Below are positions 8,154-45,841 of a stretch of DNA of 64,000 bases, piece by piece (position 1 is the first letter of the stretch; every line of letters starts with the position of its first letter). The position numbers and the translations under genes were made by a program. The notes under the pieces are model-generated. The model worked only from the letters and a program-made list of their open reading frames with translations, ran no database searches and was not told the DNA's origin. This DNA comes from Verrucomicrobiota bacterium (GTDB taxonomy: Bacteria; Verrucomicrobiota; Verrucomicrobiia; Limisphaerales; VHDF01). The stretch spans positions 62,001 through 126,000 of the forward strand of contig VHDF01000001.1 in the NCBI GenBank assembly GCA_016871495.1, written 5' to 3'.

Positions 8154-8366
8154 CGCACACTCCGGAATCGAGAGTCCCGCGACGTCCTCAAATCAGGCCT
8201 CTCGACGAGCGTCGTTCACCCCACGGGTGGCATGGCCCCCGTCGTTCTGTTTCCAATCAACCCCTGGAACAGAGTCAACACCGCGCTCCCCAAAATGACA
8301 AAGGCGGCCACTTTTACGTTCCCAAATTCCGAATTCCGTTGCTCAATCCCTGCCTCGAACTTTCGC

Positions 8367-10073
8367 ATGAAATCACCGCTCCTCGCCATGAGCCTTGCCA
8401 CCGTCGCGTTCCTCACCCCCGAAGCGCAAGACCGCTCGCAAACCCGATCCATGGTCCTTTCGCGCGATGGCATCGTGGCAAGCGAACATCCCCTGGCGTC
8501 CCAAGCCGGCGCAACCGTGTTGGCCCAAGGAGGACACGCCGTGGATGCCGCGCTCGCCGCCAACGCCATGATGTCCGTCACCGCCCCCATGATGTGCGGC
8601 CCCGGCGGCGATCTTTTCGCACTCGTCTACGACGCCAAGACAGGCCAGACGTTTGGGCTCAACGCGAGCGGATGGGCCCCTCAAGCCCTCAACGCGGAAT
8701 ACCTCCGGCGTCTCGGCCACACCAACATGCCCCAGTCCGGCATTCATTCCGTCACCGTGCCAGGCGCCGTCGACGGATGGCTGGCGCTGCACCGCCGCTT
8801 CGGCAAGATCGGACTGAAGCAGGTGCTGGCTCCCGCCATCCTGACCGCGGAACAGGGAGTCCCCCTGACCGAATGGGTCGCCGCCTATTGGAAAGAGTCC
8901 GAAGCCAAGTTGCGCACGAACGCGGAATGCGCCCGGGTTTATCTGCCGCAAAACCGGGCACCCCGAGTCGGGGAGGTTTTCAAAAACCCCGATCTGGCGC
9001 GCACCTATCAACGCATCGCGAAATCCAAGCGTGCCGGGTTCTATGCTGGTTCCACCGCTCGCGCTTTCTTGAAGCTTTCTCGGGAACTCAAAGGGACCAT
9101 CACTTCGGCAGACCTTGATGCTTTCACCTCAGAATGGGTCACCCCCATCTCCACAGATTACCGTGGCTGGACCGTCCAAGAAATCCCGCCTGGCGGCCAG
9201 GGCATTGCCGCTTTGCTCATGCTCAACATCATGGAGACCTTCCCCCTGAAGGGCTACGGAGCAGGTTCCGCCGACACGATCCACACCATCATCGAAGCGA
9301 AGAAGCTGGCCTATGCCGACCTTCTCCAATACATCGCCGATCCACGCCAAGCCAAAGTCCCCACGACTCATCTTCTGAGCAAAGCCTACGCTCATGCCCG
9401 CGCGAAATTGATCCACCCAAGCCGCGCCATGACCGGCCCGGAACCCGGACGGCCTTTCCACCCAGGAACCGACACCACTTACCTCTGCGCGGTGGATGCC
9501 GAAGGCAACATGGTGTCCTGGATTCAAAGCATCTATTCCGGTTTCGGTTCCGCCTTGGTCCCGGAAGGAACGGGAGTCCTGTTGCACAACCGCGCGGGCC
9601 TTTTCTCGCTCGAATCAGGCCATCCCAACGAACTGGCGGGACGCAAACGTCCCTTGCATACCATCATTCCCGCCATGATGATCAAGGACTCCCGCCGCAT
9701 CGCCTTTGGCATCATGGGTGGCTTCAACCAAGCCCAAGCCCACGCTCAGTTTGTGTCCCATATCGCCGATTTTGGATTGAACATCCAGGAGGCCCTGGAA
9801 GCCCCGCGCTTCACCAAGTTGACCTTTGCCGGACGCGACATTCGCATCGAGGACCGCGTACCAGCCGCGGTCAGGGAGGAACTGAAGCGACGCGGGCACG
9901 AACTTCAAGTCCAGGGCCCTTTCTCTTCCGTGGTTGGCGGCGGCCAGGCCGTGATGAGAGACGAGAGCACTGGGGTCAATTACGGAGCCTCAGATCCTCG
10001 CAAGGACGGCGCCGCCCTTCCGCAACCCTTCTGGACACGACAGTCCTCAGCCGCCTCCCCGCGCAAGCGCTGA
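8367..10073 (+). CDS. ggt: Gamma-glutamyltransferase (Ntn hydrolase)
   Basis: Secreted enzyme that hydrolyses or transfers the gamma-glutamyl group of glutathione and related compounds, made as a precursor that cleaves itself. The catalytic Thr of the small subunit is expected at T370 (GTDTTYLCAVDAEGN, codon at 9474). Other family blocks are IVASEHPLAS near the N-terminus, GGHAVDAALAAN, the substrate-binding GPGGD, and GFNQAQAHAQ in the small subunit. ATG 8367 is chosen because it yields a plausible signal peptide (MKSPLLAMSLATVAFL). The frame extends upstream to 8232 but without such a signal. Length 568 aa fits the family. It is transcribed alone, about 210 bases after the permease. Confidence 0.93.
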   Translation: MKSPLLAMSLATVAFLTPEAQDRSQTRSMVLSRDGIVASEHPLASQAGATVLAQGGHAVDAALAANAMMSVTAPMMCGPGGDLFALVYDAKTGQTFGLNASGWAPQALNAEYLRRLGHTNMPQSGIHSVTVPGAVDGWLALHRRFGKIGLKQVLAPAILTAEQGVPLTEWVAAYWKESEAKLRTNAECARVYLPQNRAPRVGEVFKNPDLARTYQRIAKSKRAGFYAGSTARAFLKLSRELKGTITSADLDAFTSEWVTPISTDYRGWTVQEIPPGGQGIAALLMLNIMETFPLKGYGAGSADTIHTIIEAKKLAYADLLQYIADPRQAKVPTTHLLSKAYAHARAKLIHPSRAMTGPEPGRPFHPGTDTTYLCAVDAEGNMVSWIQSIYSGFGSALVPEGTGVLLHNRAGLFSLESGHPNELAGRKRPLHTIIPAMMIKDSRRIAFGIMGGFNQAQAHAQFVSHIADFGLNIQEALEAPRFTKLTFAGRDIRIEDRVPAAVREELKRRGHELQVQGPFSSVVGGGQAVMRDESTGVNYGASDPRKDGAALPQPFWTRQSSAASPRKR

Positions 10074-10284: not shown

Positions 10285-11139
10285 GTGTTGGATGTCAAAT
10301 TGCGCCGTCTCGAAGAAATGCTCGCCGGTTACGAGAGTTGCTTGGTGGCGTATTCGGGCGGAGTGGATTCGGTCCTGCTCGCGGCCATGGCGAATAAGAT
10401 CCTGGGTCCCCGATCCCTCGCTGTGATCGCAGATTCTCCCAGCCTCCCGCGCCGAGAGCTGCAGGAGGCCTTGGACATTGCCCGAAGGTTCAACATCCCC
10501 GTCCGCGTTACCCGCACCTCGGAATTCGACAATCCCAACTACCTCGCGAATCCCGTCAATCGCTGCTATTTCTGCAAACACGCGTTGTTTACAGAGCTTG
10601 AACCCATCGCCAAGGCCGAAGGTTTCAGGGTCATTGCCTACGGAGAAAACGCTTCCGATCTCGGCGATCACCGCCCTGGAGCCACCGCCGCCGCCGAGTT
10701 TCAGATCCGGGCCCCGCTCAAAGAAGCCGGTTTGACCAAGAACGAGATCCGCGAACTCTCCACTCGATTGGGTTTGCCAACCGCCGACAAGCCTCAACTG
10801 GCCTGCTTGAGCTCGCGCATCCCATACGGCGAAGCCGTCACTCCCGAAAAACTGGCCATCATCGAACGGGCCGAAGAAGCCATTCGCCAGCTTGGTTTCA
10901 AAGAATTCCGAGTCCGCCACCACCAAGCGTCCGCCGGACTTCCCCTGGCCCGCATTGAACTCGCCCCGGCTGAAATGGAGCACTTCCTGGAATCCGGCGT
11001 GCGGGAATCCCTCGCCAAAGCGTTGCAATCCGCTGGCTATCAACACGTCACTTTGGACCTGTTGGGATACCGCCGCGGCAGTCTCCTGGAAGCGGCACCC
11101 ATTCATTTCCGCCCCGTCCCAACCGATAATCATCGGTAG
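10285..11139 (+). CDS. larE: ATP-dependent sacrificial sulfur transferase LarE
   Basis: LarE adenylylates and then thiolates the two carboxylates of pyridinium-3,5-biscarboxylic acid mononucleotide, giving up its own Cys sulfur (or using a cluster), in synthesis of the nickel-pincer cofactor of LarA. Visible: PP-loop SGGVDS at 24-29, C94-Y-F-C97, and C174 in LACLSSR, the position of the sacrificial Cys of the Lactobacillus enzyme. The 284-residue length fits. Start is GTG 10285; a TTG at 10288 is equally possible. larB and larC are not in the window. The stop codon abuts the ATG of the cytochrome gene, but a LarA-family gene lies at 18.1 kb. Confidence 0.92.
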   Translation: MLDVKLRRLEEMLAGYESCLVAYSGGVDSVLLAAMANKILGPRSLAVIADSPSLPRRELQEALDIARRFNIPVRVTRTSEFDNPNYLANPVNRCYFCKHALFTELEPIAKAEGFRVIAYGENASDLGDHRPGATAAAEFQIRAPLKEAGLTKNEIRELSTRLGLPTADKPQLACLSSRIPYGEAVTPEKLAIIERAEEAIRQLGFKEFRVRHHQASAGLPLARIELAPAEMEHFLESGVRESLAKALQSAGYQHVTLDLLGYRRGSLLEAAPIHFRPVPTDNHR

Positions 11140-14013
11140 ATGCCGGAAACTCTGGTCTGCCCTAACTCAACCCGTTCTCCAAAGCCGTCAAGGCCTGGAA
11201 TTAGAGCCTCCCTTCGCTCGGCACTGCTCCTCTTCCTAGGAATCGCCACTCCTAGCCTGACCCTCACGGCGAGAGCCGAAGTGATTATCCCCGGAATCCA
11301 GGCCGCCCGACTCCAAGGCGTGGAGGCCGGCATCGTCCTCATTCAAGAACTCAACTGTTTCGGATGCCATTCTCCGGGAACAGGGGAAGGGTTCAAATCC
11401 AAGCCGCGTCTCGGTCCCGATCTGGCCGATGCCGGCTCCAGGCTCGAACTTCAATGGATTCGCGCTTTCCTCGAACAACCGCACCAACTCAAGCCCGGCA
11501 CACCCATGCCCAATATGCTGCAAGCCTTTCCCGTGCAAGAGAGGCCCAAAATGATCGACCGGCTTGTCCACTTCCTGGCCGACCAGTCCGGCCACCAACC
11601 GGACGAACCCGTCGCCGCCAGCGATGCCATCATCGAGCAAGGCCGCCAACTCTATCATCGCGTTGGCTGCGTGGCGTGCCATGCCCCTTTCGATACACCC
11701 ACCGGCTTGGCCACCCCCCTCAAACAAGGAGTCAATCCCGAACCCTCCCTCCCCACTTTGGCCGCTTCCATTCCCCTGGGCGATCTCGCCACCAAAACGA
11801 CCGTCCGCTCGCTGGCGCGGTTTCTGATGGACCCCCTCAAAACACGTTCAACCGGGCGCATGCCTTCACTCGGGCTTTCCGACCCCGAAGCCTCCGCCAT
11901 CGCCATGTACTTGGTCCGCGCCCAAGCCGTCTCCGGTTCCGAAGCACCTGCCCGCCAATTGTCCGGTGTCGCTTATCAGTATTTCGAGGGCGATTTCAGA
12001 GAACACCCTCCCGACTTCGCCAAACTGGTCCCCGTCGCCGCCGGCACTTCCACAAACTTTTCACTCGAGATGCGCCAGCGTGATGCCCATTTCGCGTTGA
12101 GATTCTCCGGCACGATCACCATCACCAATGCCGGCACGTACACCTTTTTCACCGATTCCGACGACGGATCCCTGCTCAACATCGGGAAAACCACCGTCGT
12201 CACCAACGACGGTTTCCATGCCGCCACCGAGCGCTGGGGTTCGATCCATCTCGATCAAGGCGAACATCCCATCGAAGTCCTGTATTTCAACGGGGGCGGT
12301 GAATCACTCCTCCGCGTACTCTATCAAGGCCCGCGCCTGCCGAAACGCCCCATTCCCGCCACGGCCCTCAGTCACTTGGCGGTTCCCATGACACCGGCCG
12401 GACGGGTGCCGTTCACCCTCGACATGACCAAAGTCATGGAGGGCCGCGAAGTCTTCTCAACCATCGGTTGCGCTCAATGTCACTCCGTCCCCGGCGGACA
12501 AGCACGAACCCAATTCGCTCCCTCGTTTCGATCGCTGGCCGATTCCAAAGCGGGCTGCCTTTCCGCCGCGCCTCCGGTCAAAGCTCCTCGCTACAACCTT
12601 TCCGAATCTCAACGCATCGCCATCGCCGCCGCGCTCCGCAACCCCTCCTGGCTGGACCGCAACATGCCCCCCTCCACTTCGGCCTCGCTCACCATGGCCT
12701 CCCTCCATTGCTACGCGTGCCATAGCCGCGACGGACTCGGCGGACCTGACGGCGACCGACTCGAGTATTTCCTCACCGAAGGGCAGCTTGATCTCGGGGA
12801 CGAGGGCCGCATTCCTCCACACCTGACCGGAGTCGGCTCGAAGCTTCGTGAGGAAGCGCTCCGCAACGCACTCAACGAAGGCTTCCGCACCCGGCCCTAC
12901 ATGCAAACCCGGATGCCGCTCTTCGGCGACCACCAGGTCTCCGGCTTTCTCGCATGGTTCTCGCTCGCCGACGCCTTCGTCGGCGCCCAACAACCCCCGC
13001 CCTTCTCGGCGGCCTACGCCAAACATGGACGCACTCTGGTCGGCACGGACGGACTCTCTTGTATCTCTTGCCATAACATGGACGGAAAAAGATCGCTCGG
13101 CATTCCCGCCATGGATCTGGCCCACGTCGGACCGCGGCTCCGTTACGATTGGTTCCGACGCTACCTGCTCGATCCCGCCTCGCTCCGGCCCGGCACACGC
13201 ATGCCCGCCTTTTGGACCGAAGGAAAAAGCTCCAAACCTGGCATTCTTGGCGGAGATCCCGAAAAACAAATCCAAGCGCTTTGGACCTACCTGCAATCCC
13301 CCAAACTCACGGGATTGCCCGAAGGACTCATCCAACCCAAACAAGAACTCATCCCTTCTCAGGAACCCATCCTCTACCGCAACTTCATCACCGGTGCAGG
13401 TCCTCGCGCCATCGAGGTGGGCTATCCGGAGAAAGTGAACCTCGCCTTCGATGCCGAAAACGTCCGGCTCGCCCTGGTCTGGCAAGGCGGGTTCATGGAC
13501 GCCTCCCGCCATTGGACCGGCCGGGGCGAAGGATCCGAGCCGCCCCTGGGACACAGCGTGATCCCCATGCCCTCCGCACCGGCCTTCGCCGTCCTTCCCA
13601 GCCCGGACGCCCCCTGGCCCGCCGTACCGGGACGAAACAACGACTTCAAAATGATGGGCTACGAGCTCGACGCCAAACGCCGCCCGAAGTTTCTCTATCG
13701 ATTTGGAACACTCCAGATCGAAGAATCCTTTGAACCCATTCCATCCGACCTCGATCACGGTTTGCGTCGCTCCTTCATCCTCCGCGGTTTGACCAGCGAT
13801 CGATCCGTTTGGATGCGAGCCCTCGAAGGCCGCACCATCGTCACCCACGAAGGACCCACCTGGCTGGCCGATGGCCGAGTCCGCCTCCAACTCTTGCAGC
13901 CACCCACCCACAACGCGGTCGTCCGCAAGCTGCCCGGAGATCGCCGCGAACTCATCGTGCCCATCCCGAAAGACGCCGCTACAACCACGCTTACGATGGA
14001 GATCCAATGGTGA
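11140..14013 (+). CDS. Pentahaem cytochrome c with PA14 domain
   Basis: Exported multihaem protein of 957 residues. Five CxxCH haem-attachment sites are seen: CFGCH (73-77), CVACH (177-181), CAQCH (444-448), CYACH (524-528) and CISCH (641-645). Each is followed by a Met-Pro motif suited to an axial Met (PMPNM, GRMPSL, NMPPS, TRMPLFG, RMPAFW). Between haems two and three (about 275-397) is a PA14-like beta domain (TYTFFTDSDDGSLL), often carbohydrate-binding. A hydrophobic signal lies at about 26-46. The C-terminal 250 residues look like a beta-rich domain of unknown role. The gene starts one base after larE and overlaps the propeller gene by seven bases, so it probably acts with the propeller protein in periplasmic electron transfer. 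Confidence 0.88.
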   Translation: MPETLVCPNSTRSPKPSRPGIRASLRSALLLFLGIATPSLTLTARAEVIIPGIQAARLQGVEAGIVLIQELNCFGCHSPGTGEGFKSKPRLGPDLADAGSRLELQWIRAFLEQPHQLKPGTPMPNMLQAFPVQERPKMIDRLVHFLADQSGHQPDEPVAASDAIIEQGRQLYHRVGCVACHAPFDTPTGLATPLKQGVNPEPSLPTLAASIPLGDLATKTTVRSLARFLMDPLKTRSTGRMPSLGLSDPEASAIAMYLVRAQAVSGSEAPARQLSGVAYQYFEGDFREHPPDFAKLVPVAAGTSTNFSLEMRQRDAHFALRFSGTITITNAGTYTFFTDSDDGSLLNIGKTTVVTNDGFHAATERWGSIHLDQGEHPIEVLYFNGGGESLLRVLYQGPRLPKRPIPATALSHLAVPMTPAGRVPFTLDMTKVMEGREVFSTIGCAQCHSVPGGQARTQFAPSFRSLADSKAGCLSAAPPVKAPRYNLSESQRIAIAAALRNPSWLDRNMPPSTSASLTMASLHCYACHSRDGLGGPDGDRLEYFLTEGQLDLGDEGRIPPHLTGVGSKLREEALRNALNEGFRTRPYMQTRMPLFGDHQVSGFLAWFSLADAFVGAQQPPPFSAAYAKHGRTLVGTDGLSCISCHNMDGKRSLGIPAMDLAHVGPRLRYDWFRRYLLDPASLRPGTRMPAFWTEGKSSKPGILGGDPEKQIQALWTYLQSPKLTGLPEGLIQPKQELIPSQEPILYRNFITGAGPRAIEVGYPEKVNLAFDAENVRLALVWQGGFMDASRHWTGRGEGSEPPLGHSVIPMPSAPAFAVLPSPDAPWPAVPGRNNDFKMMGYELDAKRRPKFLYRFGTLQIEESFEPIPSDLDHGLRRSFILRGLTSDRSVWMRALEGRTIVTHEGPTWLADGRVRLQLLQPPTHNAVVRKLPGDRRELIVPIPKDAATTTLTMEIQW

Positions 14014-15581
14014 TTCGTACGTTCATTCGCCCATCGCCCCTTGCACCGGCGGCCAAAGCCCGTTCTCCTCTTCTTCCCCTCTGGATCACCGCGGGACTCT
14101 TGTCCTCAGCCTGGATGGATCCCCTGCCCTCTCACGCCGCTGAAACCGCCCCCGCCCCGGCCTCGAGCGAGCCTCTTCCCAAGGAGGAGGACTTCTACCG
14201 CATCGTCACTCTGCCGATTCCGCCCGGAATCACCTTGGAAGCCGGGGCCATGGCCTTCTTGCAAAACGGTCAGCTCGCCGTAAGCACGCGACGAGGCGAA
14301 ATTTATCGAGTGAACGGGGCCATGCAGGAGGACCCAGGCAAAATGAAGTTCCACCTCTTCGCCAGCGGACTCCACGAGGTCCTGGGCTTGGCCGAAAAGG
14401 ACGGCTGGCTCTACTGCGCACAGCGCGGTGAAATCACCCGCATCAAGGATCTCGATCAGGACGGACGGGCGGATCGGTTTGAAACGGTTTCCGACAACTG
14501 GGGCCTCACCGGCGATTACCACGAATACGCGTTTGGATCGAAGTTTGACACCGAAGGCTATCTTTGGGTTGTCCTGTGCCTGACCGGATCATTCACCAGC
14601 GACGCTCCGTTCCGGGGCTGGTGCCTCCGCGTGGCGCCCGATGGGAAAACGATCCCCACCGCCAGCGGACTTCGTTCTCCGGGCGGCATCGGTGCCAATC
14701 ATCTGGGCGAAATGTTTTACACAGAAAATCAGGGGCCTTGGAACGGCGCCTGCACCCTGAAGCATTTGGTCCCTGGCGATTTCATGGGCCATCCCAGCGG
14801 CAACACCTGGTACTCGCTCGCCCCCGAGATGGGCCCCAAACCACCAACCCCCGCCAGCGGAGGCCGCCTCCACCTCGAAGCGGAAAAGAATCCCCGCCTG
14901 CGCCCACCCGCCGTGTACTTTCCGTATCCCAAAAAGGGGCAATCCGCGAGCGGCATCGCCTGCGACACCACCGGCGGCGGTTTCGGACCATTCACCAACC
15001 AACTCTTCGTTGCCGATCAAGCTCACAGCACAGTCATGCGGGTCTCCCTCGAGAAGGTCAACGAAGTCACTCAAGGCGCATGTTTCATGATGCGCCAGGG
15101 CTTCGACTCCGGAAATCTTGCCCTCGAATTCGCACCCGACCACTCTCTCATGGTGTATGGCACCGACCGGGGATGGGGCGCCCGAGGAGGCAAACCCTTC
15201 GCCCTGCAACGCCTCGTGTGGAATCAGAAAACACCCTTCGAAATCCGCCAGATGCTCGCCAAACCGGACGGGTTCGAACTCGTCTTCACGACGTCAGTTC
15301 AAACCGCCACCGCATCCAACCCGGCGGACTTCCAACTGAAAACCTACACCTACATTTACCAAAGCCGGTACGGCAGTCCCGAGGTCGATCCCACCCGGCT
15401 CAAGGTATTGTCGGCAACCCCAAGCCCGGACGACCTCCGCGTCAGGCTGAAAACAAACAAGCTCATGGCGGGACACGTCCACGAACTGAAGATCACAGGG
15501 TTACGTTCCGCCAATGGCCTGCCGCTCCTTCACGGGGAAGCCTATTACACGATGAATCAAATTCCCAAAGTGACGAACTGA
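14007..15581 (+). CDS. Secreted beta-propeller protein (sorbosone dehydrogenase-like)
   Basis: A 524-residue exported protein. After a signal-like N-terminus (LLPLWITAGLLSSAW, about 23-37) it shows repeated propeller blades resembling the soluble glucose/sorbosone dehydrogenase and PVC-specific membrane-bound dehydrogenase families: MAFLQNGQLAVSTRRGEIYR, then LDQDGRADRFETV (an EF-hand-like calcium loop) and SGLRSPGGIGAN. Such proteins often accompany c-type cytochromes that take the electrons. ATG 14007 overlaps the cytochrome stop by seven bases, so coupling is likely. An upstream in-frame extension (to 13809) lies inside the cytochrome gene and is rejected. Substrate and use of PQQ are unknown. 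Confidence 0.8.
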   Translation: MVIRTFIRPSPLAPAAKARSPLLPLWITAGLLSSAWMDPLPSHAAETAPAPASSEPLPKEEDFYRIVTLPIPPGITLEAGAMAFLQNGQLAVSTRRGEIYRVNGAMQEDPGKMKFHLFASGLHEVLGLAEKDGWLYCAQRGEITRIKDLDQDGRADRFETVSDNWGLTGDYHEYAFGSKFDTEGYLWVVLCLTGSFTSDAPFRGWCLRVAPDGKTIPTASGLRSPGGIGANHLGEMFYTENQGPWNGACTLKHLVPGDFMGHPSGNTWYSLAPEMGPKPPTPASGGRLHLEAEKNPRLRPPAVYFPYPKKGQSASGIACDTTGGGFGPFTNQLFVADQAHSTVMRVSLEKVNEVTQGACFMMRQGFDSGNLALEFAPDHSLMVYGTDRGWGARGGKPFALQRLVWNQKTPFEIRQMLAKPDGFELVFTTSVQTATASNPADFQLKTYTYIYQSRYGSPEVDPTRLKVLSATPSPDDLRVRLKTNKLMAGHVHELKITGLRSANGLPLLHGEAYYTMNQIPKVTN

Positions 15582-18114: not shown

Positions 18115-19389
18115 CTACACCATCGCCCAAGCGGGTGGATGCTCGAGCCGGAACAACCGTTCCCCAGCCTTGGGCACCCACAACACCCCCTCGTCCTCGC
18201 GATGAGCAAAGGTCTCAGCCTGAATCGTCGCCGGATCGCGATATCCCAAATTGATGGAACGGCACTTGGCCTCCGAGATCGCGGTCGCCAGCGTGACACG
18301 CGCCCGTGGTGTCTCCACCCCGTTCTCAAAAGTGCCGAGCCCATAAACATGAATCGAGTGCGCCAAAACTCCCCACGGGAACGACTGAAATCGCTCCCAT
18401 TGCTTCAAAAAATAGTCCCGGCAATGATACCCCACCTGCTCGATCACCCGCCCGTGCGTGAAGCTCACTTCGCGAATGTGCGGCGCGTAAATGATCAACT
18501 CCCCGCCATCCGCCAGCACCGGCTCCAGCTTGTACATGCACTTGCCACCCGTCCAAATCTCGTCATACATCGCAGGCGCGCAGGCCAAAATGGTCTTGAA
18601 CGGACGCGGCTTCAGCGTGATGTGCAAAAGGGCCGATAAATCCGCCGCGGCCGACCACGCTTCCTCCGGCGTGCCGGCGTACAAGCCCGACAACTCCCCT
18701 TTCGCCCCAACCACAAGGCAAAAACAAAGCTTGGGAACGTTCACCATCGACCCCGCGTGATCGATCACGCGCCGCACCGGAGTCCACTTGTTCCCAATGA
18801 TCTTCGGCGTGCTGATCACCGCCCCCAGCCAATGAAAGAAATTCAACACTTCGGGCCCGGCCACTCCCGGAAATAAATATTTGTTCCCTCCCGAGAATCC
18901 CACGACCTCGTGCGGAAACACCGGCCCCACGATCACCACCTGATCGTAATCGAAGAGCATCTTGTTCACCCGCACCGGCACGTCCATCGCAAAACGGCCC
19001 TCCGACAACCGGTGAATCTCCGCCGCGGAAATCGTCCCGAGGGTCCACAATGCCGCCTCATCGTCCCAGGCATGGTTAAAAAACCGTACCGCCCCATAGG
19101 GACCCCTCCGTTCTTCCACGGAAATCTCAAGCCGACCGCAAATCGCTTCCTCGCTCATCGGTTGGTGGGTGCCCAGCGCCACCAGCACGTCCAATCCCGC
19201 CACCTCAGTCCGCAATTCAGCATGGATCGCTTTAAACAACATCCCCACCGGCGCGGTCCGCGTTCCGTCGGGAATGATCAATAACACGCGCTTCCCCCGC
19301 CAATCCCCGCCCCGGCATGCGGCCGAAACAATGTCGCGCGTCTGCCCCTCGTCCAACCCTGCCTCCGCCATCCTTCCTGTTGCCGCCAT
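18115..19389 (-). CDS. LarA-family nickel-pincer racemase/epimerase (DUF2088)
   Basis: Member of the lactate racemase superfamily, 424 aa. Comparison with LarA of Lactobacillus plantarum finds every cofactor residue: D41 and R44 (PDGTRTAP), H75 (ALGTHQP), H160, K170 (GFSGGNKYLFPG) and H186 (NFFHWLG). The 10- and 16-residue spacings of H160-K170-H186 are the same as H174-K184-H200 of LarA. The enzyme should carry the pyridinium thiocarboxylate-nickel cofactor and move hydride at an alpha-hydroxy acid carbon. The substrate is probably not simple lactate, given the SDR and MFS neighbours. ATG 19389 is eight bases from the SDR stop. LarE, needed for the cofactor, is encoded at 10.3 kb. Confidence 0.88.
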   Translation of the reverse strand: MAATGRMAEAGLDEGQTRDIVSAACRGGDWRGKRVLLIIPDGTRTAPVGMLFKAIHAELRTEVAGLDVLVALGTHQPMSEEAICGRLEISVEERRGPYGAVRFFNHAWDDEAALWTLGTISAAEIHRLSEGRFAMDVPVRVNKMLFDYDQVVIVGPVFPHEVVGFSGGNKYLFPGVAGPEVLNFFHWLGAVISTPKIIGNKWTPVRRVIDHAGSMVNVPKLCFCLVVGAKGELSGLYAGTPEEAWSAAADLSALLHITLKPRPFKTILACAPAMYDEIWTGGKCMYKLEPVLADGGELIIYAPHIREVSFTHGRVIEQVGYHCRDYFLKQWERFQSFPWGVLAHSIHVYGLGTFENGVETPRARVTLATAISEAKCRSINLGYRDPATIQAETFAHREDEGVLWVPKAGERLFRLEHPPAWAMV

Positions 19390-36077: not shown

Positions 36078-37097
36078 TTAAACTGAGGGCAAACGGTTCT
36101 CCTCTTTCGGAGCTTCCAACAAGGCCATGTCAATGTTCATGCCCAGGGTCAACCCCAATGCCTGCAACTTCTCCTTGATCTCGTTCAGCGATTTCTTTCC
36201 AAAATTGCGGTACTTCAGCATCTCTGCTTCCGTCTTCATCGCCAACTGGCCCACGGTGGTGATGTTCGCGTTGTTCAGGCAGTTCGCCGCGCGCACGCTC
36301 AACTCGATCTCGTTCACACTCATGTTGAGCAGCTTCTTCTTCTTCGCCTTCTCGTCGTCCTGCTTGTCCTCAACTTGCTCAAATTCGACGGCGTTCTTGT
36401 CATAGCCGACGAAAGGATCGAGATGGTGCTGCAGAATGGCGGCCGCCTGGGTCAAGGCATCGTCCGGGGTCAGCCGCCCGTCCGTGGTCACTTCCAAAAT
36501 CAGCCGGTCATAATCCGTCCGCTGTCCTACCCGCGCGCTTTCCACCGCGTATCGAACTCTCGAGACGGGCGAAAACAACGAATCGATCGCCACGACCCCG
36601 ATGGGCTGATCCGTTTTCTTGTTCTCATCCCCGGGGCAAAATCCGCGCCCCACCTTGACCTCGAACTCCATCTCGAGCTTCTTCTTCTTATCCAGCGTGC
36701 AGATGATCTGCCCGGGATTCACCAGCTCGATGTTTTGGTTCAATTTGATGTCCGCCGCCGTCACCGGACCATCCTTGTTCACCGACAACAACAGCGTTTG
36801 AGGTTCACGCGAGTGGGCCTTGAAAAGAATCTTCTTCAAGTTCAACACCACGTCGGTCACGTCTTCAACCACCCCGTCGATGGTCGTAAACTCATGCATC
36901 GCACCGTCGATCTTGACGGACGTGATCGCCGCGCCTTCCAGGGAAGACAGCAGCACCCGCCGAAGCGAGTTGCCGACCGTGTGCCCGTAGCCCGTTTCAA
37001 AGGGCTCGGCCACAAATCGCGCGTAGGTGGTTGTCGCCGTCGCCTCGTCTTTGACAAGGCGTTTTGGCATTTCGAATCGTCCTAATCGTACTGGCAT
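36078..37097 (-). CDS. rpoA: DNA-directed RNA polymerase subunit alpha
   Basis: 339 residues. The N-terminal dimerisation domain shows PFETGYGHTVGNSLRRVLL and FTTIDGVVEDVTDVVLN; the C-terminal DNA- and activator-binding domain shows ELSVRAANCLNNANI and YRNFGKKSLNEIKEKL, with the conserved Arg for UP-element contact (SVRAANCL). The start at 37097 has GGAG 11 bases upstream; M10 would be an alternative. A 106-base spacer with a hairpin separates it from rpsD, so its output may be tuned separately from the ribosomal proteins. Confidence 0.97.
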   Translation of the reverse strand: MPVRLGRFEMPKRLVKDEATATTTYARFVAEPFETGYGHTVGNSLRRVLLSSLEGAAITSVKIDGAMHEFTTIDGVVEDVTDVVLNLKKILFKAHSREPQTLLLSVNKDGPVTAADIKLNQNIELVNPGQIICTLDKKKKLEMEFEVKVGRGFCPGDENKKTDQPIGVVAIDSLFSPVSRVRYAVESARVGQRTDYDRLILEVTTDGRLTPDDALTQAAAILQHHLDPFVGYDKNAVEFEQVEDKQDDEKAKKKKLLNMSVNEIELSVRAANCLNNANITTVGQLAMKTEAEMLKYRNFGKKSLNEIKEKLQALGLTLGMNIDMALLEAPKEENRLPSV

Positions 37098-41978: not shown

Positions 41979-42584
41979 TTAGACTCGAGCTTCCGCCGGC
42001 TTCAACCTCGACTCAAGCCCCCGGCTCCGGAAAATGTCCTCGCGCAACCGCAACCGCCGCAGCGCTTGCAAGGTCGCCTTCGCCACGTTGGCCGCATTCT
42101 TCGATCCCAGGGATTTGCTCAAAATGTCCCGCACCCCGGCAGACTCCACCACCGCGCGCACGGTCTTGCCCGCGATGATGCCCGTTCCGGGAGACGCCGG
42201 CTTCAAGAGAACCTTGGCTCCCCCAAAGGCCGATAAAACTTCGTGAGGAATCGTCGCCGCTCGCAGCGATACCTTGACCAGCTTGTGTTTGGCGTCTTCC
42301 CCGCCCTTGCGGATCGCATCCGCCACCTCGCCGGCCTTGCCTAAACCAATGCCCACCCGGCCATTCTTGTCCCCGGCCACCACCAGCGCGCTGAAACTGA
42401 ATCGACGCCCGCCTTTCACCACCTTGGCCGAACGATTGATGTAGACCACACGCTCCACGATCTCGCTGCCCGGACGCCCATCGCCTCCGTCCGCGTTGTC
42501 CGAGGGACCTCGCCCGCGACGGCGTCCTCCCCGCATGTTGCCTCCCCTGGAGTCGCTACTGTGAGTTCGAGTTTCTTCTGCCAC
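41979..42584 (-). CDS. rpsE: 30S ribosomal protein S5
   Basis: Decoding-fidelity protein. Start is GTG 42584, preceded by GAGAGGG. A 40-residue Arg/Gly-rich N-terminus precedes the double-stranded RNA-binding-like fold ([20 protein letters not shown]) and the second domain ([35 protein letters not shown]). 201 residues, about 35 longer than E. coli S5 because of that N-terminus. Confidence 0.97.
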
Positions 42585-42605
42585 AAATCCCTCTCGTATA
42601 AATCG

Positions 42606-42971
42606 TTAAAACTGCAATCCCCCTTCGCGCGCGGCATCCGCCAGCGCCTTCACTTTTCCGTGAAATTTCGCCCCCGACCGGTCGAACACCACCGCCTCGA
42701 TCCCCTTCGCCTTGGCCACTTCCGCCGCCCGTTTGCCAAGCTTCTGGGCGCTCGCCACATTGGCCGAAAGCTTCTCCTGCTGCCCCCCCGCCTGGGTGAT
42801 GGTCGAAACCGCACCCAATGTTTTCCCGGCGGAATCGTCGATAAATTGCACGTGGATGTTCTTGCCCGTGAACCGGACACTCATCCGCGGACGCTGCGCG
42901 GTTCCGATCACCTTCTTGCGAATGCGCCAGGACCTCAGCTGCCTCAATTTCAGTTTCTGTTCCGTTCTCAT
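42606..42971 (-). CDS. rplR: 50S ribosomal protein L18
   Basis: Binds 5S rRNA with L5. 121 residues starting MRTEQKLKLRQLRSWRIRK; core RPRMSVRFTGKNIHVQFIDD and the C-terminal VVFDRSGAKFHGKVKALADAAREGG match the family. A frame open upstream to 43028 is not part of the protein, since ATG 42971 fits the family N-terminus. Confidence 0.96.
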   Translation of the reverse strand: MRTEQKLKLRQLRSWRIRKKVIGTAQRPRMSVRFTGKNIHVQFIDDSAGKTLGAVSTITQAGGQQEKLSANVASAQKLGKRAAEVAKAKGIEAVVFDRSGAKFHGKVKALADAAREGGLQF

Positions 42972-43027
42972 CGATATTCCCAATCTCGCGGTCCGTCCAG
43001 ATTGAAGCCCGGATCGTACCACCAACA

Positions 43028-43564
43028 TTATTGCACGGTCTTGCCTTCCTTGCGGAGGACTTTTTCGTCGCTGTATCGCACACCCTTGCCCTTGTAAGGT
43101 TCGGGAGGATAATAAGCCCTGATCTCCGCCGCCACTCGTCCCACCAACTCCTTGCTCGGCCCCTCGATGGTCAGCTTCGTGTTTTCTTCCACCGTCACTT
43201 TGATCTGGTCGGGAATGGGATATTGGACCGGATGAGAATAACCCAGGCTCAAATTGACCAGCTTGCCTTGCACCGCCGCCTTGAAACCAACGCCCTGAAT
43301 CTCAAGCTTCTTGACGAATCCGTTGGCAACGCCGTTCACCATGTTGTTCAGAATGGCGCGGCTCAACCCGTGCAGGGCCTTGGCTCGCTGATCATCCCCC
43401 TCACGGCTCACTTTCAGCTCCGTTCCGCTCAAGGTCGCCTGCGTCAAGGCAGGCATTTCAAAATCCAGTTTTCCCTTCGGGCCTTCCACCCAAACCTTGC
43501 GGCCCTTGACTTCCACCTTGACCTTTGGCGGAACCGTAATCGGTATGCGTCCAATGCGTGACAT
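43028..43564 (-). CDS. rplF: 50S ribosomal protein L6
   Basis: 178 residues with the duplicated L6 fold. MSRIGRIPITVPPKVKVEV at the start and GFVKKLEIQGVGFKA in the second half are diagnostic; the conserved YYPPEPYKGKGVRY lies near the C-terminus. It contacts the sarcin-ricin loop. Standard order between rpsH and rplR. Confidence 0.97.
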   Translation of the reverse strand: MSRIGRIPITVPPKVKVEVKGRKVWVEGPKGKLDFEMPALTQATLSGTELKVSREGDDQRAKALHGLSRAILNNMVNGVANGFVKKLEIQGVGFKAAVQGKLVNLSLGYSHPVQYPIPDQIKVTVEENTKLTIEGPSKELVGRVAAEIRAYYPPEPYKGKGVRYSDEKVLRKEGKTVQ

Positions 43565-43598
43565 ATGCTTGTCTCTTGTTTCGTTCAGCCGCCAAATC

Positions 43599-43982
43599 CT
43601 ACCAGATAAAGCACAGGACTTCGCCGCCCACGTTTTGTTTCCGCGCCTGGCCTCCGGTCATGACCCCCTTCGGCGTGCTCAGAATCGCGGTCCCCATGCC
43701 TCCCAAGACCCGCGGAATCTCGCCGGCACCCACATAGCGGCGCAATCCCGGGGAGCTCACTCGTTTCATTCCGGCAATCACACTTCGCCGGCCCTCGAAC
43801 TTCAACTTGACCCGCAATTGCTTGATCTTGGCACCGTCCACCGCCCAGTCAGCGATGTAGCCTTCCTGCTTCAAAATCTTGGCGACACTTTCCTTGAGGC
43901 GCGAATGCCCCATGATCACCTCGGGAATCAGCGCCGTTCCGGCATTCCGGATCCGCGTCAGCATGTCTGCAATATTGTCCAT
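43599..43982 (-). CDS. rpsH: 30S ribosomal protein S8
   Basis: Central-domain 16S rRNA binder, 127 residues. DNIADMLTRIRNAG at the N-terminus and GGMGTAILSTPKGVMTG near the C-terminus are the family marks. Start preceded by AAGGAAAG. In E. coli S8 represses the spc operon at the rplE leader; no equivalent structure was established here. Confidence 0.97.
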   Translation of the reverse strand: MDNIADMLTRIRNAGTALIPEVIMGHSRLKESVAKILKQEGYIADWAVDGAKIKQLRVKLKFEGRRSVIAGMKRVSSPGLRRYVGAGEIPRVLGGMGTAILSTPKGVMTGGQARKQNVGGEVLCFIW

Positions 43983-43991
43983 AGACTTTCC

Positions 43992-44261
43992 TTACCAGCT
44001 CGCCTTGACCACACCGGGGATAAGCCCCGCCAGGGCCGCCTCGCGAAACGTCAGGCGGGAACATGAAAACTTGCGAATGTAAGCGTGCCGACGTCCGCTG
44101 ATCGCGCAACGGTTGGTGACGCGCGTGGGGCTCGCGTTCTTGGGCAATTTCGTCAGGCCCTCATAATCCTTCTTCGCCTTCAACTCGGCCCGCAACGCGG
44201 CGTATTTCTTGACGGTCTCGCGCTTCTTCTTCTCCCGCTCAATCCATGCTTTCTTGGCCAT
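43992..44261 (-). CDS. rpsN: 30S ribosomal protein S14 (zinc-free type)
   Basis: 89 residues with [17 protein letters not shown] and the C-terminal [20 protein letters not shown] and [21 protein letters not shown] blocks. The CxxC...CxxC zinc knuckle of short S14 is absent, so it is the long metal-free form. ATG 44261 is chosen over upstream in-frame codons as it matches the family start. Confidence 0.96.
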
Positions 44262-44274
44262 ACAATGTGTGGTG

Positions 44275-44820
44275 TTACTTGGCTTCCGCAAACGGCATTC
44301 CCATCAATTTCAACAATTCAAACGCCTCCTCATCGGTGCCCGCCGAAGTCACGATGGTGATGTCCATCCCCTGCTGGCGCTTGATCTTGTCCAAATCAAT
44401 CTCAGGAAAAATCGTCTGGTCCGGAATGCCAATGGAATAATTGCCCTTGCCGTCGAAGGACCGCCTCGACACGCCGCGAAAATCCCGGATCCGCGGCAGG
44501 GCCGCCGCGACCAGACGATCGTAAAACTCGTACATCACTTCCCGCCGAAGGGTCACCCGGCAGCCGATCGGCTGTCCCTTGCGCAACTTGAAATTGGCCA
44601 CACTCTTGCGGGATTTGCAGATCACCGGCTTCCGACCCGTGATCATCGACAAATCCTTGGCGGCGTCATCCACCGCGCCCTTTTCCAGAGACGCGCTCAC
44701 CCCCATGTTCACAACAATCTTTTCGATCCTCGGGGCCTGGTGGACATTGCCATACTTCCGCTTCTCCATGAGCGCGGGACGAACGCTTTCCTCGTATTTG
44801 ATTTGCAGCCTCGGCTTCAT
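44275..44820 (-). CDS. rplE: 50S ribosomal protein L5
   Basis: Central-protuberance protein binding 5S rRNA and touching P-site tRNA. 181 residues from ATG 44820. [37 protein letters not shown] and [20 protein letters not shown] are diagnostic. In-frame codons upstream fall inside the rplX gene and are not used. Confidence 0.97.
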
Positions 44821-44849
44821 ACTGGACGTCTTTAATGCCTGGTTCTCGA

Positions 44850-45131
44850 TCAAGATTGCGCGACCTCGGCCGCGGCCTTGGCCCGGCGGGGTTTCGCGTC
44901 GTAAACAGAGGCTCGCATCACCTTGGACCAATGCAACATGCCTTCCTTGGTCACGATGCGGCCTTCAGGATGGGCCTGACTCTTGCGCATGTGGCGTTTG
45001 ATCATGCGGATGCCCTCCACAATGACCCGCTGTTTCCCGGGCATGACCTCAATGATCTTGCCCCGCTTGCCGCGGTCCGCGCCGGAGAGCACGACCACCT
45101 CATCACCCTTTTTGACATGCACACTCGCCAT
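44850..45131 (-). CDS. rplX: 50S ribosomal protein L24
   Basis: Assembly-initiator protein with a KOW motif (KKGDEVVVLSGADRGKRGKI). 93 residues, somewhat short, ending in an Ala/Lys-rich tail; the conserved HMRKSQAHPEGRI follows the KOW domain. Standard position between rplN and rplE. Confidence 0.96.
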   Translation of the reverse strand: MASVHVKKGDEVVVLSGADRGKRGKIIEVMPGKQRVIVEGIRMIKRHMRKSQAHPEGRIVTKEGMLHWSKVMRASVYDAKPRRAKAAAEVAQS

Positions 45132-45156
45132 AACTCGATTATTCCTAAATTCCGTT

Positions 45157-45522
45157 TCAGATCACCTCGGGGGCCAGGGAAATGATCTTCATAAATCTCT
45201 TTTCCCGAAGTTCGCGCGCCACGGGCCCGAAAATACGCGTTCCCTTCGGATTGTTCTCTTTGTCGATGATGACGATCGCATTGGAGTCGAATCGCAGATA
45301 TGACCCGTCGCCCCGGCGAATCGCCTTGCGCGTGCGCACAATCACCGCGTTCACAACATCGCCCTTCTTCACCGACCCGTCAGGAGCCGCCTCCTTGATG
45401 TGCGCCTTGATCACGTCCCCGATCTTCGCGTAGCGCTGATTCCGCCCCAGCACGCCAATCGCTGCCGCCTTGCGCGCACCCGTGTTGTCCGCCACGTCCA
45501 GGATCGATCGAATTTGCAACAT
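45157..45522 (-). CDS. rplN: 50S ribosomal protein L14
   Basis: 121 residues at the subunit interface. [36 protein letters not shown] and [20 protein letters not shown] are almost invariant family sequences. No unusual feature. Confidence 0.98.
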
Positions 45523-45544
45523 AGGATTCTCGCTTTCTCGTTCG

Positions 45545-45841
45545 TTAAACGGATTGAGCCTTCGCCGCGCCTGAGGCCTCTACCACTTCCACCAGACGCC
45601 AGCGTTTGGTCTTCGACATGGGACGCGTCTCCGCGATCTTCACGAGATCCCCGATCTTCGCCTTTCCCTCCTCGTCATGGGCGTAAAATTTGTTGAAGGC
45701 GGTCACCACCTTTTTGAACACCGGATGCCGAAAGCGCCGCTCGACGCGCACCACGATCGTTTTTTGCATCTTGTTCGAGATGACTTCGCCCGTGCGCTCC
45801 TTGCGCGTGGCCCTGCATTCCGCTGATTGCGTCGTTTCCAT
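45545..45841 (-). CDS. rpsQ: 30S ribosomal protein S17
   Basis: OB-fold 16S rRNA binder, 98 residues from ATG 45841 (an in-frame TTG at 45850 is also possible). [20 protein letters not shown] and [19 protein letters not shown] are family marks. A short acidic N-terminus and an Ala-rich tail are added compared with E. coli. Confidence 0.96.

Follow-up and report, generated by a model that had tools for sequence, protein, structure and literature searches.

Organisation of the gene pair

Two genes lie on the forward strand of the window (the whole stretch of 64,000 nucleotides that was analysed): a gene for a five-haem PA14 protein of 957 aa with an ATG start (11140–14013), hereafter the partner, and a gene for a propeller protein of 524 aa starting at the ATG of 14007 (14007–15581). 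The two overlap by 7 nt (ATGGTGA, 14007–14013), so that the start of the propeller gene overlies the partner's final Trp codon and stop codon. Signal peptides are apparent by eye at both N-termini, which suggests that both proteins are exported. A reading made earlier from the sequence alone had described a 957-residue protein combining five CxxCH motifs with a PA14 domain, and a seven-base overlap with the following gene; the open reading frame and the Pfam scan bear this out.

The partner contains exactly five CxxCH motifs, i.e., CFGCH at residue 73 (11356–11370), CVACH at residue 177 (11668–11682), CAQCH at residue 444 (12469–12483), CYACH at residue 524 (12709–12723), and CISCH at residue 641 (13060–13074). 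Each is followed by a Met-Pro pair 47–68 residues past its first Cys (M123, M241, M509, M592, and M688, respectively), a spacing as expected for class I His/Met cytochrome c, the putative axial ligands being our own reading. Having CxxCH with a downstream Met and Pfam scores above the cut-offs (Cytochrom_C, 81.5 bits against 21.3; Cytochrome_CBB3, 61.4 against 27), the partner can be classed with the class I cytochromes c. The PA14 domain (residues 314–406, 12079–12357; Pfam, 41.7 bits against 24) is flanked by haems 2 and 3. Of the 11 Pfam matches of the partner at E ≤ 1, none is to a PSCyt or PSD family, and the Pfam scan found no 3-keto-disaccharide hydrolase domain (PF06439) in either window protein.

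The partner also passes the cut-off of SoxX (TIGR04485; 73.5 against 61, summed over two short stretches). SoxX is a small cytochrome paired with SoxA. This assignment was rejected because the partner has 957 residues and five haems and its neighbours are LarE and the propeller; its own SoxA score is 12.7 bits against a cut-off of 110. That this five-haem protein passes the NCBIfam equivalog cut-off through summed short stretches probably gives rise to wrong SoxX annotations.

The larE gene (10285–11139; TIGR00268, 307.9 bits against 150) directly abuts the five-haem gene and is itself preceded by a gamma-glutamyltranspeptidase gene (8232–10073, E 2.9e-147). A LarA-like protein is encoded approx. 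2.5 kb past the pair (18115–19389), its best NCBIfam match being a putative nickel-dependent hexonate epimerase, below cut-off. Further along, positions 36078–61914 hold a housekeeping block with rpoA, EF-G, rpoC, and rpoB.

The propeller protein

According to the structure model (pLDDT 78.3, pTM 0.81), the second protein consists of a propeller (residues ~58–407, 14178–15227) and a C-terminal beta domain (residues ~408–524, 15228–15578), and the fold matches span residues 58–407 only. The best match is 3a9g (Z 28.6, 296 residues, 3.0 Å), followed by 7cgz (Z 28.2), 2ism (27.8), 7cdy (27.6), 2g8s (26.9), and 3das (26.7). By title, all six are sugar or glucose dehydrogenases, and the next entry has a Z of 24.5. 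Propellers of the SMP-30, DFPase, and NHL types also match the model (Z 23–24), and the PQQ group is ahead of them by approx. 2 Z units. Thus, by fold search, the model belongs with the propellers of the soluble glucose dehydrogenase (sGDH) type. A direct search of the propeller profile against PDB sequences was uninformative, since designed Pizza propellers, matching through a single short motif, topped the list.

In terms of sequence families, the window propeller falls below three cut-offs: 13.3 bits against 25 for PF07995, 25.9 against 27 for DUF7133 (PF23500), and 26.2 against 122.2 for TIGR02604. Relatives in loci L018 (48.7) and L017 (33.8) exceed the DUF7133 cut-off of 27. In an alignment of 55 sequences (the window propeller and 54 of the 60 relatives found), DUF7133 matches all 55 at E ≤ 0.01, PF07995 matches 15, and PF08450 matches 11. 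The term "sorbosone-dehydrogenase-like", used in the sequence-only reading, therefore holds at the level of fold but not by family score.

The key residues of sGDH, as given in the accessible part of PMC6881810, are the catalytic His144, Arg228-Asn229, and Gly247-Pro248 of the calcium loop, and Arg228 is held there to assist PQQ. Alignment by hhalign of the 55 sequences with sGDH-type sequences (probability 97.2, E 4e-11) places Arg223 (14673–14675; kept in 54/55) on Arg228. His172 (14520–14522; kept in 53/55) is a candidate counterpart of the catalytic base, but the alignment is ambiguous: the His144 column lies three positions off His172 in hhalign, whereas an ungapped reading by eye aligns the two. 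Gln242-Gly243 (14730–14735; kept in 53/55 and 54/55) can be matched by eye to Gln246-Gly247 of the calcium loop, where the Gly is thus retained in 54/55 sequences and the Pro in 17/55. Asn229 is replaced by Ser in 52/55. The earlier reading would have fallen with a predicted propeller that had no active-site pocket; the model instead predicts a sugar-dehydrogenase-type fold with conserved candidate active-site residues.

The C-terminal domain of the partner

The last ~230 residues of the partner (residues 724–957, 13309–14010) form a domain that is retained in all partners and was overlooked in the earlier reading. This C-terminal domain (CTD) appears to be a distant relative of DUF6797 (PF20601), which scores 17.6 bits on the whole partner and 21.1 bits on the CTD alone against a cut-off of 24.9 and matches four of nine CTDs of relatives at E ≤ 0.1. 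Its model (pLDDT 78.5, pTM 0.78) predicts a supersandwich of the kind seen in GH38 mannosidases and PL33 lyases, among related enzymes; the best match has a Z of 11.8 over 182 residues at 3.3 Å. The fold neighbours are mostly carbohydrate enzymes, but the periplasmic domain of YidC is similar at Z 11.5, and a common fold alone proves no function for the CTD.

Co-conservation of the pair

Profiles for the CTD, PA14, the 3-keto-disaccharide hydrolase (KDH) domain, and the propeller were built in this analysis from these families. The propeller was found in at least 20 of 288 genomes of the window's phylum (E ≤ 1e-60) and in at least 64 of 246 genomes of a second phylum, to which the Pirellula MAG of locus L018 belongs; both counts are lower bounds because only the best few candidates per genome were scored in the propeller searches. 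The CTD occurs in 22 of the 288 genomes (E ≤ 1e-8), including all 20 propeller genomes, and the other two (G243 and G271) hold divergent pairs. Within the window's phylum, a CTD is encoded upstream, on the same strand and within 2.5 kb, for 38 of 41 propeller genes. From the second phylum, 40 regions were fetched (the top 20 by E-value following G289, plus 20 chosen lower ones, G471 being passed over at a contig start), and the CTD is adjacent in 33 of them (31 by script; L154 and L163 by eye). The remaining seven regions represent six genomes, all with CTD genes elsewhere, and no propeller lies beside these displaced genes in the seven stretches read.

In total, 104 propeller genes were collected: 12 from a scan of genome contigs, 52 from regions of the window's phylum, and 40 from the second phylum. 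The window pair and the re-fetched loci L126–L130 are excluded from this count, and locus L109 gave no propeller. A partner is adjacent to 93 of these genes, fused to one, and encoded elsewhere in the genome for nine; for one, a second, divergent propeller in L092, no partner was found. By script, 89 pairs were adjacent and one fused; L097, L110, L154, and L163 were set as adjacent by eye. L097 had been a candidate CTD-propeller fusion, as its CTD match falls within the propeller ORF; this was rejected because the N-terminus of the ORF lies in another frame. The genuine fusion, a single chain of 1112 aa in G271 (L119, 5014–8352), comprises a KDH-like stretch, one cytochrome, the CTD, and the propeller, arranged in the same order as when encoded separately. 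The nine split pairs are the seven cases of the second phylum, L017 with L125, and L061 with L109. In the last of these (genome G234), a haem-less partner (L109, 4070–6444) and a hydrolase gene are accompanied by SecA in place of an adjoining propeller, and the orphan propeller (L061, 9213–10880) is found on another contig.

Partner and propeller trees, compared with the truncated propeller of L091 left out and the window pair added, are congruent (r 0.75), a value confounded by species descent. No common operon neighbours emerged, as no family is present in more than 4 of the 64 neighbours scanned (64 of 79). As judged from these comparisons, the pair is real, widespread, and modular, and it recurs in several bacterial groups. 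Co-conservation, on which the sequence-only reading had staked its case, is therefore evident. The pair is not confined to PVC bacteria, the group named in that reading, since Bacteroidota have it too, with the haem moved to the propeller.

Exchangeable electron carriers

Among the 89 adjacent pairs (window excluded), the partner carries five CxxCH motifs in 45, two in 4, one in 21, and none in 19. Eight of the 19 haem-less partners, all from Bacteroidota loci, accompany a propeller with one haem at its C-terminus. In L021 (6737–9007), a plastocyanin/azurin-type cupredoxin (PF00127, E 2.8e-12) at the C-terminus of the propeller replaces the haem domain of the Bacteroidota relatives. Neither protein has a CxxCH in 11 of the 89 pairs; setting aside L021 and the like-sized L022 (the cupredoxin scan covered the former), nine pairs are without a recognised carrier, including two cut by a contig end (L091 and L171) and one with an adjoining cytochrome gene (L070). 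A fused carrier is thus not obligatory, as some pairs show none. The type of carrier follows the propeller tree, requiring 8 changes where shuffled labels need 39 on average.

The constant parts of the pair, as the comparison indicates, are the propeller and the ~230-aa CTD, and its variable part is the electron carrier. The five haems of the window would accordingly represent one setting of a variable module, which may be five, two, one, or no haems on the partner, a haem on the propeller, or a cupredoxin. Of the sequence evidence, the swap of a haem for a copper carrier on one and the same chain most strongly suggests electron exchange by the propeller, and the interchangeability of carriers lends support to the earlier suggestion that the pair is wired to an electron chain.

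The layout found in the window recurs as well. Wherever a PA14 domain was detected in a five-haem partner (22 of 22), two haems precede it and three follow it, as in the window, and the 7-nt overlap is found in 23 of the 89 pairs, 20 of which are among the 45 five-haem pairs. Given this shared order and recurrent overlap, the window layout is not due to chance, and the recurrence of the overlap suggests translational coupling.

Cofactor and substrate

PqqC was absent from all 20 pair-bearing genomes in a profile search, which counts against a PQQ cofactor; as a control, it was over the cut-off in 6 of the 288 genomes of the window's phylum. PqqE was dropped as a marker of PQQ synthesis because no genome was over its cut-off and all 14 controls fell below it; its matches are taken to be generic radical-SAM proteins. 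It should be noted that, in the portion of PMC12124388 available, Verrucomicrobia with the importer PqqU are described as lacking PQQ synthesis genes and scavenging without synthesis as common. PQQ import is thus possible, and another cofactor is equally so.

Clues to the substrate come from associated domains. PA14 is present in 55 of the 89 adjacent pairs. A KDH domain is found in 19 of them (16 on the partner and 3 on the propeller), unevenly distributed: in 11/11 adjacent pairs from the related-loci search vs. 8/78 others, and the window pair has none. In L085 (9378–11768), a ThuA (trehalose utilisation) domain is fused to the propeller (E 4.7e-43); a hydrolase-cytochrome gene lies beside the L097 pair, and a second hydrolase gene adjoins the pair in Rufibacter loci and in L192 and L195. 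The window's genome has 35 matches to 3-keto-disaccharide hydrolase, none of them on the window's contig. The same genome shows distant propeller and KDH matches in same-length ORFs on contigs C45 (~12909–14903) and C35 (~42095–45649), and within each of these frames (1517 and 1291 aa) the two domains are probably fused. Price and colleagues proposed, in the part of PMC9007349 accessible, that 3-keto glycosides which LacABC produces in the periplasm are cleaved by DUF1080 proteins, the 3-keto hydrolases. Taken together, PA14, the 3-keto-disaccharide hydrolase and ThuA fusions, and the supersandwich fold point indirectly to a carbohydrate substrate. A role in 3-keto glycoside metabolism seems plausible for the family and would be conjectural for the window pair.

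Possible function and alternative explanations

The pair is most likely a carrier-wired periplasmic sugar dehydrogenase, perhaps a glycoside 3-dehydrogenase, and sugar oxidation probably takes place outside the inner membrane. On balance, we favour a two-subunit exported complex resembling a carrier-wired sugar dehydrogenase. The propeller subunit would hold the active site, most likely in the central pocket that PQQ sugar dehydrogenases use, and its partner would dock via the C-terminal supersandwich domain, with PA14 and the CTD perhaps holding a glycan. The five class I haem c domains of the partner would relay electrons to the cytochrome pool of the periplasm and to terminal oxidases. Translation would begin with the partner, and the 7-nt overlap would couple translation of the propeller to it. 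The sequences themselves show the domain content, the overlap, the co-conservation, the exchange of carriers, the single-chain fusion, and the predicted folds, whereas complex formation, electron flow, and a carbohydrate substrate are what we infer. Which cofactor is used (PQQ taken up from outside or a different one), whether C3 is the site of oxidation, and whether the pair is coupled to 3-keto-disaccharide hydrolases are matters of conjecture. The pairing of the genes had been recognised in the sequence-only reading, where they were called a "paired oxidase", but "dehydrogenase" would be the more fitting term; overall, that reading finds partial support.

Within this context, it might be asked whether the window encodes a true PQQ quinohaemoprotein, which would oxidise C1 of free aldoses to lactones in the manner of sGDH with scavenged PQQ. 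The top fold matches are indeed PQQ aldose or glucose dehydrogenases, the Arg and the Gln-Gly loop match sGDH, and, in the available text of PMC12124388, scavenging without synthesis extends to Verrucomicrobia with PqqU. Nonetheless, PqqC is missing from 20/20 pair genomes, Asn229 has become Ser in 52/55 sequences, the catalytic His is not cleanly aligned, and the associated domains indicate 3-keto glycosides rather than lactones, so we regard C1 oxidation as unlikely. Also improbable is a propeller without a redox role, serving as an enzyme or a binding scaffold of the lactonase/SMP-30 type and leaving the haem partner to a separate reaction or to electron storage. The direct fusion of both haem and cupredoxin carriers to the propeller chain in Bacteroidota speaks against such a role, and the PQQ group scores approx. 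2 Z units higher than the other propellers; in its favour, SMP-30, DFPase, and NHL propellers match well, PF08450 matches 11/55 and PF07995 15/55 of the aligned sequences, and 9/89 pairs have no recognised carrier.

Alternatively, the partner could be a cytochrome of extracellular electron transfer, with the propeller aiding only assembly or surface binding. The five haems of 45/89 partners would fit this, and multihaem proteins are described as common in these phyla in the accessible parts of PMC11495043 and PMC5615132. However, pairing persists while the haem count drops to one or zero, the invariant parts are the CTD and the propeller, and each haem, as we read it, sits in a class I domain of its own and not in a densely packed multihaem core; this explanation is accordingly very unlikely.

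A bolder version of the sugar dehydrogenase reading, which we offer tentatively and consider rather unlikely, is that the pair is a periplasmic glycoside 3-dehydrogenase built on a propeller, wired to a carrier, and not related to LacABC. It would provide 3-keto glycosides for the DUF1080 and ThuA proteins that abound in Planctomycetota, Bacteroidota, and the window's phylum, and would respire the electrons via interchangeable modules with haem or copper, perhaps with no need for PQQ. If the proposed function is correct, the many uncharacterised cytochrome and propeller genes of PVC bacteria and Bacteroidota would include a unit of two genes that can be clearly defined, in which the docking domain is constant and the carriers can be swapped. 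Moreover, the source of the 3-keto sugars thought to be cut by many DUF1080 proteins would become testable. Literature searches for DUF6797, DUF7133, and the PVC-type names returned nothing, and, by titles and the beginnings of abstracts, no paper on such a pair and no characterised member were found.

Comparison with known systems

The nearest named sequence families are the PVC-type haem-binding propellers of TIGR02604 and DUF7133. Unlike TIGR02604, which is described as a haem-binding CxxCH protein, the window propeller has no CxxCH and would use its partner instead. With sGDH and Asd (PF07995), it shares the predicted propeller fold, the putative Arg and Gln-Gly loop motifs, and apparent export; it differs from them in scoring below the PF07995 cut-off, in having Ser for Asn229, and in the lack of PqqC in pair genomes. 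The wiring to a haem domain is reminiscent of the fungal AA12 quinohaemoprotein, a pyranose dehydrogenase (PMC4332668, as far as its available text goes). However, in contrast to sGDH, Asd, and AA12, the window pair has an extra C-terminal beta domain and a nearly constant, supersandwich-bearing partner.

The five-haem partner also resembles the planctomycete PSCyt1-3 proteins with PSD domains, described in the accessible part of PMC5615132 as cytochromes of PVC bacteria that await characterisation and are fused to domains binding carbohydrates, among them PA14. Unlike these, it has no PSCyt or PSD match, and its own partner is a different one. LacABC of Caulobacter, in turn, is of the flavoprotein type and unrelated to the propeller; it is membrane-bound and contains no propeller. 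Nonetheless, the proposed logic of LacABC and DUF1080, i.e., periplasmic oxidation followed by DUF1080 cleavage (PMC9007349, in the part available), may be similar: DUF1080, absent from the window pair, is fused or adjacent to some of the pairs described here.
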